A stretch of DNA of 64,000 nt from Xanthomonas arboricola pv. guizotiae (lineage in GTDB: Bacteria > Pseudomonadota > Gammaproteobacteria > Xanthomonadales > Xanthomonadaceae): the NCBI RefSeq assembly GCF_002940205.1, contig NZ_MDSK01000011.1:62001-126000 (forward strand), given 5' to 3'. The notes beneath the pieces were generated by a model. That model was not told the DNA's origin. It worked only from the letters and a program-made list of their open reading frames with translations, and did not search any database. Positions 4,631 through 63,955 of this stretch are shown here, piece by piece; position 1 is the stretch's first letter, and each line of letters begins with the position of its first letter. Position numbers and translations under genes: made by a program.

Positions 4631-4741
4631 TCTCCTGTGTGAGCGTCCAGTTTCCCATGTTGTCGGGCGGTGCAGAAGCCGGCCTCACGCATCCATCGAC
4701 CCAGCACGTACACTGCCGTCCCCTGAAGCCGAGCTCGCCCG

Positions 4742-58255: not shown

Positions 58256-59320
58256 ATGATTCAACGTCGTCATTTCCTCAAGAGCGCCACCCTGGGCGCC
58301 ATCGCTTCCGGCCTGGCCGGATGGGGCGCACGTGCGCAGGCCGCGGCCGCTGGCACCGCGGCAGTACGCCCTGCGGCGTTGCCCAAAGGTCAGGCACGGG
58401 TGATTTCCACCTGGGATTTCGGCGTGGCCGCCAATCAGGCCGCGTGGAAGCTGCTGAGTACCGGTGGCATGGCGCTGGATGCGGTAGAGGCCGGCGTGCG
58501 CGTGCCCGAAGCGGACCCGAACAATCCGACGGTGGGCCTGGGCGGGTATCCGGATCGCGATGGGCGGGTGACGCTGGACGCCTGCATCATGGACCACCTG
58601 GGCAATTGCGGCGCGGTGGCGTCGCTGGAAGATGTGGTGCATGCCATTTCGGTGGCGCGCGCGGTGATGGAAAAGACCCCGCATGTGATGCTGGTCGGCG
58701 ATGGTGCGCGGCAGTTCGCACTTGCGCAGGGCTTTGAGCAAACCAGGTTGCTGACGCCGAGTTCGGAAGCGGCGTGGAAGCAGTGGTTGAAGACGTCGAA
58801 GTATTCGCCCGAAGCCAATGTCGAAAACCGCGCCTGGCGTGACGCCAAGCTGCCCGGTGGCAAGGACAACCACGACACCATCGGCATGATTGCGCTGGAT
58901 GCGCACGGCAATCTGTCCGGCGCGTGCACCACCAGCGGCATGGCATGGAAGATGCACGGGCGGGTCGGCGACAGCCCGATCATCGGCGCTGGTCTGTATG
59001 TGGACAACGAAGTGGGCGGCGCCACCTCCACCGGCGTGGGCGAAGAAGTGATCCGCAATGTCGGTAGCTTTGCAGTGGTGGAAATGATGCGCCAGGGCAA
59101 GTCGCCGGCCGATGCCTGCCGCGAGGTGGTGATGCGGTTGATCCGCCGCAAGCCGGAGCTGACGCGCACGCTGCAGGTGGGATTCCTGGCGATGAACAAG
59201 CGTGGCGAGGTGGGTGCGTTCGCGATCCAGAAGGGCTTTAGCTACGCGGTGTGCGATGCGCAGCGGCAGGATCTGCTGGTGCCCGGCGAGAGCCATTACA
59301 CCAGCGAGCCGGCGGCATGA
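58256..59320 (+). CDS. N4-(beta-N-acetylglucosaminyl)-L-asparaginase (glycosylasparaginase)
   Basis: This is an Ntn-hydrolase that cuts GlcNAc-Asn bonds of degraded N-glycoproteins. The protein has 354 residues. A twin-arginine signal (RRHFLKS, R4-R5) is followed by ATLGAIASGLAGWGARAQA, so it goes folded to the periplasm. The catalytic nucleophile is Thr208 in NHDTIGMIALD, after autocleavage. GLGGYPDRDGRVTLDACIMD, and the C-terminal half with GAGLYVDNEVGGATSTGVGE and YTSEP at the end, are family features. It overlaps the cutC start. The nearby sialidase gene suggests use of glycoprotein glycans. Confidence 0.93.
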   Translation: MIQRRHFLKSATLGAIASGLAGWGARAQAAAAGTAAVRPAALPKGQARVISTWDFGVAANQAAWKLLSTGGMALDAVEAGVRVPEADPNNPTVGLGGYPDRDGRVTLDACIMDHLGNCGAVASLEDVVHAISVARAVMEKTPHVMLVGDGARQFALAQGFEQTRLLTPSSEAAWKQWLKTSKYSPEANVENRAWRDAKLPGGKDNHDTIGMIALDAHGNLSGACTTSGMAWKMHGRVGDSPIIGAGLYVDNEVGGATSTGVGEEVIRNVGSFAVVEMMRQGKSPADACREVVMRLIRRKPELTRTLQVGFLAMNKRGEVGAFAIQKGFSYAVCDAQRQDLLVPGESHYTSEPAA

Positions 59321-60048
59321 GTGCATTGGGTCTTGAAGTTGCGGCCGATTCGGTGGCCTCGGCGTTGGCCGCGCAAGCAGGCGGTGCGATGCGCGTTGAG
59401 CTGTGCGGCGGGCTGGATGGCGGTGGACTGACCCCGTCGTTCGGCACGTTGGCGGTAGTGCGCGCGCGTTTGCGGATTCCGCTGTATGTGCTGATCCGCC
59501 CGCGCGTGGGCGATTTCGTGTTCAGTGTCGATGAGGTGGAGGCGATGCGCCGCGATGTGCAGCAGTGCGTTGCGCTGGGCTGCGATGGCGTGGTGCTGGG
59601 CGCGCTGGACCGTCATGGCCAGGTCGATATGGACACGATGCGCGTGTTGATCGAGGCGGCTGGATCGCTCGGTGTGACTTTTCACCGTGCGATCGACGTC
59701 AGTGCCGAGCCTGCGCGCGCGCTGGAAGATGCGATCGCGCTGGGCTGCGTGCGGGTGCTGACATCGGGTGCGCGTGCCAGCGCCGTCGAGGGCGTGGACG
59801 TCATCGCCGCGCTGGTGCAGCAGGCGGCCGGTCGCATCGGCATCATGCCGGGCGCGGGCGTCTCCGAGCACAACGTCGCCAGCTTGCGCGCACGGACCGG
59901 TGCCTGCGAATTCCATGCGTCTGCTCGGGGGACGGTGGCTGCGCAGGTGCCGGCGCCGCATGCCTACATCAGCGACCTGGGCGGAGATTACCAGCGCACC
60001 GATGCCGCGCGGGTACAACGGATGGTGGACGCGTTGCAGCAAACGTGA
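59317..60048 (+). CDS. cutC: CutC family protein
   Basis: The 243-residue protein has a TIM-barrel fold of the CutC family. It shows LEVAADSVASALAAQAGGAMRVELCGGLDGGGLTPS, PLYVLIRPRVGDFVFSVDEVEAM, CDGVVLGALDRHGQVD, VTFHRAIDVSAEP, RVLTSGARASAVEG and FHASARG. It was first linked to copper tolerance in E. coli, but the copper role is disputed. The ATG overlaps the asparaginase stop (ATGA), so the two are translated together, which hints at a link to amino-sugar or glycan catabolism instead. Confidence 0.9.
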   Translation: MSALGLEVAADSVASALAAQAGGAMRVELCGGLDGGGLTPSFGTLAVVRARLRIPLYVLIRPRVGDFVFSVDEVEAMRRDVQQCVALGCDGVVLGALDRHGQVDMDTMRVLIEAAGSLGVTFHRAIDVSAEPARALEDAIALGCVRVLTSGARASAVEGVDVIAALVQQAAGRIGIMPGAGVSEHNVASLRARTGACEFHASARGTVAAQVPAPHAYISDLGGDYQRTDAARVQRMVDALQQT

Positions 60049-60151: not shown

Positions 60152-61927
60152 CTACTGATGGCCTGAAGGTTCCGGGGTTGTTTGCCGTTCGTCCTCAGAG
60201 TCGTCGCTGACCTGCTCGGGAATGTGCAGCGTGAAAGCCGGAAAGCACGCGCGGTCTTGCGTGTGTGCGTTGACGATCAGCTCCCGGGTCTTCCACATCT
60301 GGATCGCCTTGGCCAAGGTCGCTGCGTCGAGCTGGCTTCCTGCGTGATAAACGAACTGCCCAAGATGATCGACGATGCCCAGGTGCGCGCTCTTCTGCGC
60401 CTTCCAGTTGCTGACGTTCGCGTAGTGGCGCCTGAGGCCTTCCTCGCTCGGGTCTTCGACTCTGGGGGGGGGGCCTGCCATCTCGATCACCCGCCTCAGG
60501 AAATGGGGATCCTTGCTTTCTTTCAGCATTTTCTGCAAGGCCGGAATCTGGCCGAAGGTGGTGGGAGCGTCGGGTGGGCGCTTTTCTGGAAGGTAGGATG
60601 GAGCACCTTCCAGAAAGGGATTTCTTTCCTCATCAATGACCGTGCTCAGCATGGTCTGCGCGGTGTCTTCGATGCGTTCGAGCGCAGCCGTGCGAAGCGG
60701 TTCAGTGGTTGTCGCCGACGAGGATGCGCTGGCTCGATTGCCGGCACCAGGTGGCGAGAGATCCGGGGCGGCTGGGCCGGTCTGCTCTGGTTCGGCGGGG
60801 CGCGCAGTCAGACGAAGACGGTCGAGTTCCGCCTGTAGATGCGGCGGCACCCGGATAGTGCAGCTGGCAGGTAATCTGGCAATCGACGAGGGCAGTCTGG
60901 AGAGATTGTCGCAGCCTCGCAGGTCGAGTTCTTCGAGTTGCGTCAAAAGGTGAATGTCCAGCGGCAGGATGCGCAGGTTGCTGCAGTCTTTTAAGCTCAG
61001 TCGTTTCAATGGCGCACTGCCGTCAAAAATCGGTGGATAGTTGCTCAGCGCTGTGCAGCCTTCCAAATCAAGTTCTTCCAGCCTTGGCATTCGATGGATG
61101 GCCGGTGCAAGAGTGGACAGCGGCGAATCGCTTATCTGTAGCGTTTTCAGGTTTTGCAGGCCGGTAATGGAAGTCGGAAGCGATGTGATCCCGGTCCCCA
61201 CCAGCTGCAGCTTCTGCAGGTTGACAAACCCCTCGTGCTCGCCGGATGCATTGGTGTTCGCCAGGCGTTTGGGAAGTTCCTTCAATTCCGGGCAGGAAAG
61301 GATGGAGAGCTCACGCAATCGGCTGAGGCTTGCGATGGATGCAGGTAGCGAATCAAGCGGATTGTGCGCAAGCCTCAGTGTTTCCAGGCTCGAAAATTGC
61401 TGCATGGTGGCCGGAAGCTCCATCAGCCCCGCCGCGTTGATCGTCATGTGCTGCAGATGAGAAAGACGGTATGCCTGATCGGGAAATTGCGGAAGGGGAA
61501 CTGAGTTCAGCTCCAGCGCTACCCGCTCCGGTAGGGTTGCGTCCTCCAGTATGTCGGCTGTTGCCTTGAGCGCCCGGGCCGTGCTTGTTTCGACTTGCGG
61601 ATCGTTGCTGTTGGCCTGCCGCCATGCGCTGTGCCAGCGACTGCGGTCTGCGCTGTAGTGTCGTTGCCATTGCGCCAGAACGTCGCGGTACGGGCGAAGT
61701 GCTGTGGAGCGCTGTAATGGCGAAGCGTCAACGGTCGATGGCACACGCGGGCGGCCGGACCGGTGGCCAGACACATGTCTGATCAGGCCGCCGAGTATGC
61801 CGGTAGGGCGCTCGGGCGCGGGGTGTGCGGGTGGGACATTGCGCGCGGGTGCATTCGCATTGGATCCATCCTGCTCCGGCAGTCCGATAGGCGTGCCCGG
61901 CGGGCGTGGTTGATCGACGCGTCGCAT
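60152..61927 (-). CDS. xopL: Type III effector XopL (LRR E3 ubiquitin ligase)
   Basis: The 591-residue protein closely resembles XopL of X. euvesicatoria, a plant-targeted E3 ubiquitin ligase injected through the Hrp type III system. The N-terminal about 120 residues are Pro/Arg/Ser-rich (secretion region). A YSADRSRWHSAWRQANSNDP stretch precedes an LRR array of plant-type repeats at about 150-385, with repeats such as LETLRLAHNPLDSLPASIASL and LEELDLEGCTALSNYPP. The C-terminal XL-box domain (about 420-591) has no homology to RING or HECT. Lower GC and atypical codons suggest horizontal acquisition. A C10 run encodes P486-P488. The coding sequence is otherwise intact. Confidence 0.93.
   Translation of the reverse strand: MRRVDQPRPPGTPIGLPEQDGSNANAPARNVPPAHPAPERPTGILGGLIRHVSGHRSGRPRVPSTVDASPLQRSTALRPYRDVLAQWQRHYSADRSRWHSAWRQANSNDPQVETSTARALKATADILEDATLPERVALELNSVPLPQFPDQAYRLSHLQHMTINAAGLMELPATMQQFSSLETLRLAHNPLDSLPASIASLSRLRELSILSCPELKELPKRLANTNASGEHEGFVNLQKLQLVGTGITSLPTSITGLQNLKTLQISDSPLSTLAPAIHRMPRLEELDLEGCTALSNYPPIFDGSAPLKRLSLKDCSNLRILPLDIHLLTQLEELDLRGCDNLSRLPSSIARLPASCTIRVPPHLQAELDRLRLTARPAEPEQTGPAAPDLSPPGAGNRASASSSATTTEPLRTAALERIEDTAQTMLSTVIDEERNPFLEGAPSYLPEKRPPDAPTTFGQIPALQKMLKESKDPHFLRRVIEMAGPPPRVEDPSEEGLRRHYANVSNWKAQKSAHLGIVDHLGQFVYHAGSQLDAATLAKAIQMWKTRELIVNAHTQDRACFPAFTLHIPEQVSDDSEDERQTTPEPSGHQ
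60464..60473 (-). repeat. Homopolymeric C10 tract in xopL
   Basis: Ten consecutive G on the plus strand (C on the coding strand) span the Gly485-Pro-Pro-Pro codons, just after the repeat domain and in the early ligase region. In this sequence the frame is intact across it. Poly-C runs of this length are liable to slipped-strand change, which would truncate the effector. Confidence 0.9.
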
Positions 61928-61983: not shown

Positions 61984-62002
61984 GCGAATCCGTGGAGGCG
62001 AA
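61984..62002 (-). promoter_or_regulatory. Imperfect PIP-like box upstream of xopL
   Basis: On the xopL strand the motif reads TTCGC-N9-TTCGC, ending 57 bases before the start. The consensus plant-inducible promoter box for HrpX is TTCGB-N15-TTCGB. Imperfect boxes with shorter spacing are known, so this is a candidate only. A CATCGT about 21-26 bases downstream could be the -10 element. Confidence 0.35.
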
Positions 62003-62012
62003 GCCACCGTCA

Positions 62013-63161
62013 TCATGACGAAGGATCGGCCGCGTGGTCGCATGCCGTTGTGCAGCGCTCAGACTGCGTTGCGGGGGCGGGCGCCTGGCAGGGGCCGCAC
62101 GCGTCGATTCGCGTGGGATCGAGCACTACATGCTTGATCCGTCGGCGCTTCCAGGTGTAGCTGATGTGCACCAACCCGTCACGGGTCTGGATCGCGGCCG
62201 GATACGAAAATTCGTCCTTGGCGCTGTCTTCCAGCGTGAGCACCCGCTGCCAGTGCAAACCATCGTCCGACAGTGCCACCGCCAGCGTGCCGCGTCCCTC
62301 CCACCAGTCCTTGCCGGCGATGGCGGGGTTGTAGACCAGCAAGGCGCGGCCGTCGCGCAGCATCGCCGCGTCGGTGCCGGAATTGGGGTTCTGCACATCC
62401 AGCAGTTGCATCGGCTGCCAGTGCAGGCCGCCATCGTCGGAGAAGGTGCTGAAGAGTGTGTCCTGCTGGCTGCGGCCCAGCGCCTGCAGACGACCATCCG
62501 GATACAGCAGCAGGCTGGGTTGGATCGCGCCGATCACGCTCGGATCGTTGAGCGGCATGCCGCGCTGCCAGTGCGCGCCGTCATCGTCGCTCCATTCCAG
62601 ATGCGCGCGCCAGCCGCGATCTTCGCTGCTGCTGGGTGCCAGGATGCGGCCGCCCGGCAACTGCAGCGGCTTGTTCTTGATTGGGCCAAGGATGCCGTCC
62701 GGCAAGCGCTGCGGCGTCGACCACGTCGCGCCGTTGTCCATGGAGGTGAGCCGCAGCCCCCACCACTGCCGCGGGTTGGGGCCGAGTTTGTAGTACAGCT
62801 GTACCGGCCCGGTGGACGATTGAAACAGCACCGGATTCCAGGCCGGCACATCGGTCCCTTGCTCGCCGGCGTGCGCGCCGTCGGCAATGCGTTGCGGAGT
62901 CTGCCACTGCTGCGGGCCACGCCGTGCGAGCCAGATGCCGACGTCGGGCGCGCCTTCGCGCGCACCGCCAAACCACGCCGCCAGCAGCTGCCCATCGCGG
63001 GTTTCCAGCAGGGTGGAGGCGTGCGCCTGTGGCGTGGGGGCAGGGTCGGCGATGAATTCGCTACGCACGATCGGCGACGCCGGAAACACGGCAGAGCGCG
63101 CCTGCGCGCTGCAGGCAGCAAGACTGGCAACAAGGCAGGTCAGCAAGCGCGTGGAAAACAT
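62013..63161 (-). CDS. Sialidase-like secreted (lipo)protein with BNR/Asp-box repeats
   Basis: The product has 382 residues. The signal peptide is MFSTRLLTCLVASLAAC, with a lipobox LAAC giving Cys17, or cleavage by signal peptidase I after AQA. A six-bladed propeller is implied by Asp boxes: SMDNGATW, SDDDGAHW, SDDGGLHW and SDDGLHW. Family marks are HASTLLETRDGQLLAAWFGG (the Arg/Glu subsites), VPAWNPVLFQ, and IGAIQPSLLLYPDGRL. An exo-alpha-sialidase or related glycosidase (BNR_2) is likely. Whether the sugar is sialic acid in a plant pathogen is doubtful, and other acidic sugars such as Kdo- or pectin-derived residues are alternatives. Confidence 0.85.
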   Translation of the reverse strand: MFSTRLLTCLVASLAACSAQARSAVFPASPIVRSEFIADPAPTPQAHASTLLETRDGQLLAAWFGGAREGAPDVGIWLARRGPQQWQTPQRIADGAHAGEQGTDVPAWNPVLFQSSTGPVQLYYKLGPNPRQWWGLRLTSMDNGATWSTPQRLPDGILGPIKNKPLQLPGGRILAPSSSEDRGWRAHLEWSDDDGAHWQRGMPLNDPSVIGAIQPSLLLYPDGRLQALGRSQQDTLFSTFSDDGGLHWQPMQLLDVQNPNSGTDAAMLRDGRALLVYNPAIAGKDWWEGRGTLAVALSDDGLHWQRVLTLEDSAKDEFSYPAAIQTRDGLVHISYTWKRRRIKHVVLDPTRIDACGPCQAPAPATQSERCTTACDHAADPSS

Positions 63162-63214: not shown

Positions 63215-63634
63215 ACCTGTGCCTTGGTCATCCCAGGCGCAGGCGGCCGTGGTTGCCGACCATGTGCAGCGAGGGCAGCCGGTCGAGCGCATCAGCAAGG
63301 CGGTAGGCAGGAACGTCATGGGCGTTGGCATGTCTGCGCCGTCCTGGGATCGCCACGTGTGCCGATGCCAAGGCCTGGGACACGTTCATGTCGCGCAACC
63401 GGTAGTGCTGGCCTCGCCCTGTGGCTTGATCGCCATGGGTGGCTCGACGGCACATCGGGAGTGCGACGTGCATTGCGAAGCTGCATGGCGCGGATTCAGC
63501 GGTACGCGTGTGCGCCGCTATCGGAAAGGCACTGCAGTGCGCTGCAGCCTGGCCTGTGTATCGCGACGCCGCGTGCAGGTCGTTGGTGGTCAACGCGCAT
63601 CACATCGTGCATTCCGTCCACTCAGGAGTCGAGC
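63215..63634. other. Spacer ahead of rebB
   Basis: About 420 bases lie between the palindrome and the RebB-like start. They hold the likely promoter of the R-body gene. A minus-strand open frame at 63228-63593 is Arg/His-rich, has no ribosome binding site and I do not call it. No RNA gene is seen. Confidence 0.45.
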
Positions 63635-63955
63635 ATGGCCTTTCCAACTGCAGTCAATCAACAGGTGACCGATGCCGTCACCCAGTCCGACGTCAAGGTT
63701 GTAGGCGAAGCGCCGGCGATGGCGATGGGCTCGATCTACCAGACAATGGCACAGTCGAGCGGTGTCCTGTTCCAGAACGCCGTCGCGGCACAGCAACAGC
63801 AGAACACCCTGGCGCAGGCTACGACCAATCAGGGCGTGATGCAGGTCTACAACGTGGATACCACGGTGGCGGCCGGTGCCGGCGAAAAGAGTGCGCAGAC
63901 CGGCGTGGCCGACAACCTGACCAGCCTGCTTACAGTGCTCCAGGCGTTCAAGTGA
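63635..63955 (+). CDS. rebB: RebB-family R-body protein
   Basis: The protein has 106 residues starting MAFPTAVNQQVTDAVTQ. It then reads VGEAPAMAMGSIYQTMAQSSGVLFQNAVAAQQQQN, the characteristic RebB alpha-helical pattern with repeated Ala/Gln. It continues QATTNQGVMQVYNVDTTVAAG and a C-terminal helix NLTSLLTVLQAFK. R-bodies are insoluble protein ribbons built from such subunits that extend on acidification; they were first known from Caedibacter. AGGAG lies 8 bases before the ATG. A further hairpin at 63970-63998 follows. The window ends before other reb genes can be seen, so the size of the cluster is unknown. Confidence 0.8.
   Translation: MAFPTAVNQQVTDAVTQSDVKVVGEAPAMAMGSIYQTMAQSSGVLFQNAVAAQQQQNTLAQATTNQGVMQVYNVDTTVAAGAGEKSAQTGVADNLTSLLTVLQAFK

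Follow-up and report, generated by a model that had tools for sequence, protein, structure and literature searches.

A lone RebP-type gene at the site of Group 2 R-body clusters, retained in a clade of Xanthomonas

As far as the relevant sources are accessible, the R-bodies studied to date need more than one cluster gene, either RebA and RebB or RebP1, RebP2 and RapA, and in Pseudomonas aeruginosa PA14 the expression of rebP1 requires FecI2 and RcgA (PMC8322103). Primary Reb proteins are described, in the available sections of a second article, as sharing QITD, KxxxD/E, NAV and QQQ motifs together with conserved prolines; the taxon figure of that article counts taxa possessing three or more reb genes (PMC13430693). 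A 2013 survey, again in its accessible text, mentions an extra Reb located far from the main cluster in Xanthomonas axonopodis, as well as taxa with only one copy (PMC3583457); this extra Reb is probably the same gene as the solitary one described here. Our literature search, which drew on partial texts and had most subscription journals outside its range, led us to recognise no paper on a solitary RebP or on the ECF-type promoter candidate described below.

The gene under study lies at the edge of the window, by which we mean the entire 64,000-nucleotide stretch of Xanthomonas arboricola pv. guizotiae DNA that was analysed; the draft genome it comes from totals 4.93 Mb, and the contig concerned, C11, is 138,288 bases long. 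The open reading frame runs for 106 codons from an ATG at 63635 to a stop codon at 63953–63955. As the original prediction of a short RebB-like gene had it, Pfam-A assigned the encoded protein to RebB (PF11747) and to no other family, with 94.8 bits against a cut-off of 24 (Table 1), and the predicted sequence pattern (MAFPTAVN, APAMAMG and a Gln-rich stretch) is present as described. The protein also carries motifs listed for primary Rebs in the available parts of PMC13430693, namely K21-x3-E25, NAV, QQQ, P4 and P27, with QVTD replacing QITD as one conservative change, and it was matched by 876 of 878 scored candidate database proteins (E≤1e-3). Relatives occupy the same locus in 24 further Xanthomonas genomes, three of these copies being broken, so the reading frame is not a chance one; genes at this locus are referred to below as solos. 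A solved-structure library returned only unrelated proteins (best E 0.57), an AlphaFold2 model was all helical with low confidence (mean pLDDT 55, pTM 0.20), NCBIfam offered no name, and a match was found to PHROG 32040, a family of unknown function.

Table 1. Coordinates of the features discussed in the text; positions are those of the window unless a locus identifier (L) precedes them.
Feature	Position	Strand	Basis
Asparaginase-family gene, site marker	58256..59320	+	PF01112; syntenic
CutC-family gene, site marker	59251..60048	+	PF03932; in 23/25 loci, the other two stretches stop at contig ends
XopL-type effector gene, variable neighbour, outside the proposed unit	60152..61927	-	PF20817 E=2.2e-74; in 12/25 reb loci
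Divergent sialidase-like (BNR_2) gene, constant neighbour	62013..63161	-	PF13088 E=4.6e-92; adjoins reb in 25/25 loci
Conserved upstream block, role unknown; candidate region of the present promoter	63462..63532		Alignment of 23 solo upstream regions
Shine-Dalgarno-like CAGGAG	63623..63628	+	Sequence; 6 bases 5' of ATG; conserved across 23 aligned solo upstream regions
Solitary RebP-type reb gene, 106 aa	63635..63955	+	PF11747 E=3.3e-27; sole PF11747 match on contig
Group 1 reb cluster, contig C2	L009:7038-11246		Four Rebs, two Reb-like proteins, HP1-like proteins
ECF-type sites, loci L143, L144, L145	L144:7104-7128, 4664-4688; L145 6517, 8232, 8898 (minus)		

The original prediction further anticipated two or more extra reb genes in one direction. 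A PF11747 search of contig C11 gave no match besides the window gene, also across the 12.3 kb of contig that remain beyond the window, and this expectation therefore fails at the window locus. Beyond the edge lie, in order, a YgjP-like metallopeptidase, HsdR, an open reading frame that we take, with no Pfam check, to be HsdS, a Bro-N protein and HsdM; HsdR is found downstream of the solo in five of 25 loci. The Bro-N domain protein sits inside the type I restriction operon, adjoining HsdM (L008:12602-13456).

Six more PF11747 matches are present in the same genome on contig C2, corresponding to four Rebs of about 90 residues and two Reb-like proteins. The four Rebs are followed by proteins of 81, 220, 119 and 357 residues, which fit HP1.4, HP1.3, HP1.2 and HP1.1 as laid out in section 11 of PMC3583457, the portion of that paper used here; the cluster is accordingly of the Group 1 kind as judged from length, order and Reb match only. 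The genome plausibly has R-body potential, owing to this C2 cluster and not to the window locus, which leaves the earlier suggestion that the organism encodes R-bodies standing for the genome and removes it from the locus for which it was made. The C2 cluster also holds a 127-residue open reading frame of unknown kind (L009:9486-9869), and an open reading frame upstream of it resembles, by eye, uroporphyrinogen decarboxylase. Group 1 clusters apparently down to one Reb match and HP1.1 were seen in G010 (C6 near 1040379) and G031 (C8 near 59897), possibly a parallel reduction to a single Reb.

Relatives of the window protein point to a different R-body lineage. A scan of named genomes retained 79 relative loci, in Paraburkholderia, Burkholderia, Lysobacter, Luteimonas, Dyella, Pseudomonas, Chromobacterium, Xanthomonas and other genera, most of them less than 2 kb from another Reb; identity to the relatives in Paraburkholderia, Lysobacter and Dyella, which are mostly paired, is 74–85%. 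The Group 2 label is based on the ECF sigma factor, RebD and Crp-type regulator found in Xanthomonas clusters, and by this gene content together with similarity the window gene appears to be of the RebP, or Group 2, type. A 71-row protein tree separates, at 100/100, the RebP-type proteins and the Group 1 Rebs of the window's genome. In the same tree the 22 solos do not form one clade (two changes; 0% of 200 bootstrap trees with one), which speaks weakly against a single origin given the few alignment columns; which RebP of a pair survived is not told by these 71 short rows.

Two Xanthomonas genomes carry Group 2 clusters next to the solo's markers. The gene order in Xanthomonas sp. F10 is asparaginase, CutC, sialidase-like gene, alpha-L-fucosidase, HP2a in two frames, HP2b, RebP and a RebP fragment. 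At the start of the X. bonasiae stretch lie part of the sialidase-like gene and traces of fucosidase, followed about 3 kb further on by the ECF sigma factor, RebD, HP2a, HP2b, RebP1, RebP2 and RcgA. Among the solo loci, L052 has a fucosidase between the sialidase-like gene and the solo that matches the F10 enzyme over residues 1–461 of 463, and fucosidase fragments lie in the same interval in L042, L043, L045 and L050. These shared markers and fucosidase pieces place the solo and the F10 and X. bonasiae clusters at one site. The F10 cluster looks half decayed, with HP2a in two frames and the second RebP partial; RcgA and RebD were not found in its genome, nor the sigma factor in its 12 kb. Evidence against a common site comes from other xanthomonads. 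The cluster of Xanthomonas sp. GPE 39 consists of one RebP, RebD, an open reading frame that is sigma-factor-like by eye and four of the promoter-like sites described below, with no marker gene (the sialidase-like gene included) in its 13 kb; the NCPPB 1128 stretch likewise showed none before the contig end.

Since Group 2 clusters occupy the same site in F10 and X. bonasiae, the window gene is likely a remnant, left after in-place loss of the sigma factor, RebD, two helper proteins, RcgA and the twin RebP; we infer the full cluster to be ancestral. Neither further rebs nor a sigma factor, regulator or helper genes were found at the window locus. Cluster remnants upstream of the sialidase-like gene were sought in five of the ten reb-less genomes, and no match was better than E 0.058. 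Queries for the ECF sigma factor, RcgA, HP2b and HP2a each found nothing in 35 genomes of the genus; as controls, the RcgA query found six of eight cluster genomes, and the sigma, HP2a and HP2b queries, controlled locally, recovered relatives in cluster loci. A PF11747 match is present in 30 of the 35 genomes and is the only one in 16, always at the solo locus. With G004, whose copy has stops, set aside, the solo is the sole RebB-family gene in 15 genomes, or in 14 if G033 is set aside as well.

The promoter region was compared across the relatives. In 56 of 73 other loci a TTCACR-N15-CGTY motif (the ECF-type site, defined by the present analysis and not by earlier literature) lies ahead of the first RebP gene, against an expectation of 0.04 from plain letter shuffles of loci that are mutually non-independent. 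The motif had been spotted by eye in 11 of these loci, ten of which have it; outside those it is present in 46 of 62. The 73 loci are the 79 relatives minus the Xanthomonas solos L090, L097, L100, L107 and L122 and minus L112, whose upstream region is cut. The site also occurs 5' of rebD in the NCPPB 1128 and X. bonasiae stretches and, in GPE 39, before the sigma-like open reading frame, rebD and rebP; each of these three stretches has one additional copy. None of 23 solos has the site within 150 or 500 bases upstream, and none was found in the 18 kb around the window gene, in the F10 stretch or in 20 kb surrounding the Group 1 cluster. Its position and its co-loss with the cluster make it a candidate promoter of the cluster's ECF sigma factor; the accessible text of PMC4362757 yielded no FecI2 consensus. 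A sigma-70-type scan of L008 5100-7400 returned no site.

Outside Xanthomonas, the ECF-type site is missing in genomes with a single PF11747 match at L086, L088, L091, L115, L135 and L141 (four of them MAGs, which may be incomplete); it is retained in L117, a short-contig locus that likewise has one match. Eight motif-less loci (L087, L103, L113, L116, L121, L125, L127 and L134) belong to genomes with two to five PF11747 matches, so a missing site alone does not mean solitude.

We also noted a palindrome, GTACGGC-N4-GCCGTRC, about 40 bases before rebP1 and just 5' of the ribosome site. As GTACGGC-N4-GCCGTAC it precedes rebP1 in 15 of 29 Lysobacterales loci (L067, L070–L074, L077, L079, L082, L085, L089, L092–L094 and L099), in none of 44 others and in none of 23 solos. 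It is a candidate regulator site or RNA hairpin, and a worn copy near 63500–63524 in the window seemed possible by eye. A plant-inducible promoter link was rejected: TTCG-N16-TTCG, expected 1.65 times in the window, matches once (61999–62022, minus strand), at a place that does not lie upstream of reb.

Taken together, a model for the solo emerges in which a Group 2 cluster would have shrunk in place to leave one RebP, with the second RebP, RebD, the helper proteins, RcgA and the ECF sigma factor lost from the site; the gene would be driven by a promoter other than the cluster's, and the selected property would be the ability of RebP to polymerise by itself into a ribbon or coil. The solo seems to have outlived its regulon. 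That it is a lone RebP-type protein at a Group 2 cluster site, without cluster partners, likely still self-assembling and probably under a new promoter, is a reading to which we give about even chances. The more far-reaching version, a one-gene R-body in which RebP, free of the ECF regulon and of partners, polymerises alone and is kept across a Xanthomonas clade, with parallels in other Lysobacteraceae, is tentative and in our estimation somewhat unlikely.

Selection on the solo bears directly on this model. The median pairwise dN/dS of 22 solos is 0.239, compared to 0.062 for the asparaginase, 0.175 for the CutC and 0.135 for the sialidase-like gene (23, 18 and 19 rows, copies with stops or short matches omitted). 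Codon models, with the transition/transversion ratio set to 1, covered 22 of the 25 loci (G004, G012 and G032 omitted as broken, G033 kept) and gave a maximum likelihood omega of 0.292 for all solos (2dlnL against omega=1: 165.5). RebP1 of ten clusters has an omega of 0.046 (2dlnL 228.9), the solo values in the window's own clade (0.169–0.199) being about fourfold higher; this looser constraint, like the excess over the three neighbouring genes, counts against the model. The solo is thus kept in clade A, the 15-gene clade that includes the window, less constrained than in clusters; elsewhere it is loosened, broken or gone.

The loosened, broken and missing copies are what would be expected if the solo were a functionless relic of a Group 2 cluster heading for loss, an explanation that we regard as unlikely. 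It draws on the lost ECF-type site, on broken copies in G004 (stops), G012 and G032, on the divergent middle in G033, and on a locus empty of reb in ten of 35 genomes. It draws as well on clade B, whose seven genes have an omega of 0.698 (2dlnL 4.05), or 0.627 (4.67) without G033 and 0.603 (4.04) without G008 as well. Clade B, chosen after the alignment was seen, is one clade in the codon and protein trees, and six of its seven genomes group in a tree of two neighbour genes (support 100); it is weakly but nominally constrained, and decay is the simpler reading for it. Against the relic explanation stand two lines of evidence: i) omega in clade A is 0.199 (2dlnL 174.8), with 0.169 (142.1) in the nine genomes that have no other reb and 0.151 (111.9) in the six with Group 1 genes, and ii) neutral simulation on the third-position tree placed stops in a mean of 14.2 of 22 tips over 1000 runs, never in none, and in at most three tips in four runs only. 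That selection is purifying also in species lacking any other R-body gene indicates that the solo likely has a job of its own.

What this job might be is constrained by 49 positions that are nearly fixed in 45 other RebPs. A solo that had lost polymerisation and been taken over for another cellular task would be consistent with its looser constraint relative to cluster RebP1 and with regulation that differs from the clusters. However, these states are kept at 94.4% in clade A, with 46 of 49 in the window protein, and a changed task appears quite improbable; the corresponding figures are 87.5% in clade B (90.5% without G033) and 47.4% in Group 1 Rebs. The retention of RebP-fixed states in clade A suggests polymerisation as the likeliest selected property.

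Co-assembly of the solo with Group 1 Rebs from another part of the genome would be conceivable where an intact solo and HP1.1 occur together, as they do in the window's genome and six others. It is very improbable, however: an intact solo is found in 14 genomes that have neither HP1.1 nor another PF11747 match, and solos share 47% of RebP-fixed states with Group 1 Rebs, from which the tree separates them with full support. HP1.1 is present in 14 of 35 genomes, and a link between possession of a Group 1 cluster and loss of the solo was considered and dropped, since intact solos occur in seven of 14 genomes with HP1.1 and in 14 of 21 without it (G033 counted as not intact).

The proposal that the window gene starts an R-body locus that serves host interaction together with XopL and the sialidase-like protein reflects the adjoining genes and can hardly be right, as no further reb lies on the contig, XopL accompanies reb in fewer than half of the loci, and the sialidase-like gene, present in 34 of 35 genus genomes, occurs also in those without reb and so gives no functional tie. 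Where present, the XopL-type gene sits between CutC and the sialidase-like gene.

If true, a RebP kept by selection in the absence of partners would mark the minimal unit able to polymerise, or else uncover a further function of Rebs. From X. bonasiae (full) through F10 (broken) to the solo, nature supplies a series of reductions that can be compared. For Group 2 R-body operons across several proteobacterial groups, the conserved ECF-type site is a candidate signature of the promoter, and it would help to learn when these operons switch on.

The closest described systems can be placed around the solo as follows, within the accessible parts of the sources. Group 1 clusters with HP1.1–HP1.4 (PMC3583457) encode members of the same Pfam family, but the window gene differs from their Rebs in its longer C-terminus, its subgroup and its lack of HP1 neighbours. 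The Caedibacter RebA and RebB also belong to this family; there the ribbon needs several Reb proteins, whereas here a single gene is present. For the extra Reb of X. axonopodis (PMC3583457), probably the same gene, the present analysis adds the relation to Group 2, the selection and the promoter. The Group 2 clusters with RebP1 and RebP2 of P. aeruginosa PA14 (PMC8322103) have the same RebP-type protein, a likeness drawn through relatives and not by direct comparison with the PA14 sequence. These relatives, in Xanthomonas, are paired in clusters with an ECF sigma factor, a RebD-like gene and a Crp-type regulator; unlike them, the window has a single RebP and lacks the ECF-type site, and none of the partners sought turned up in the genus.
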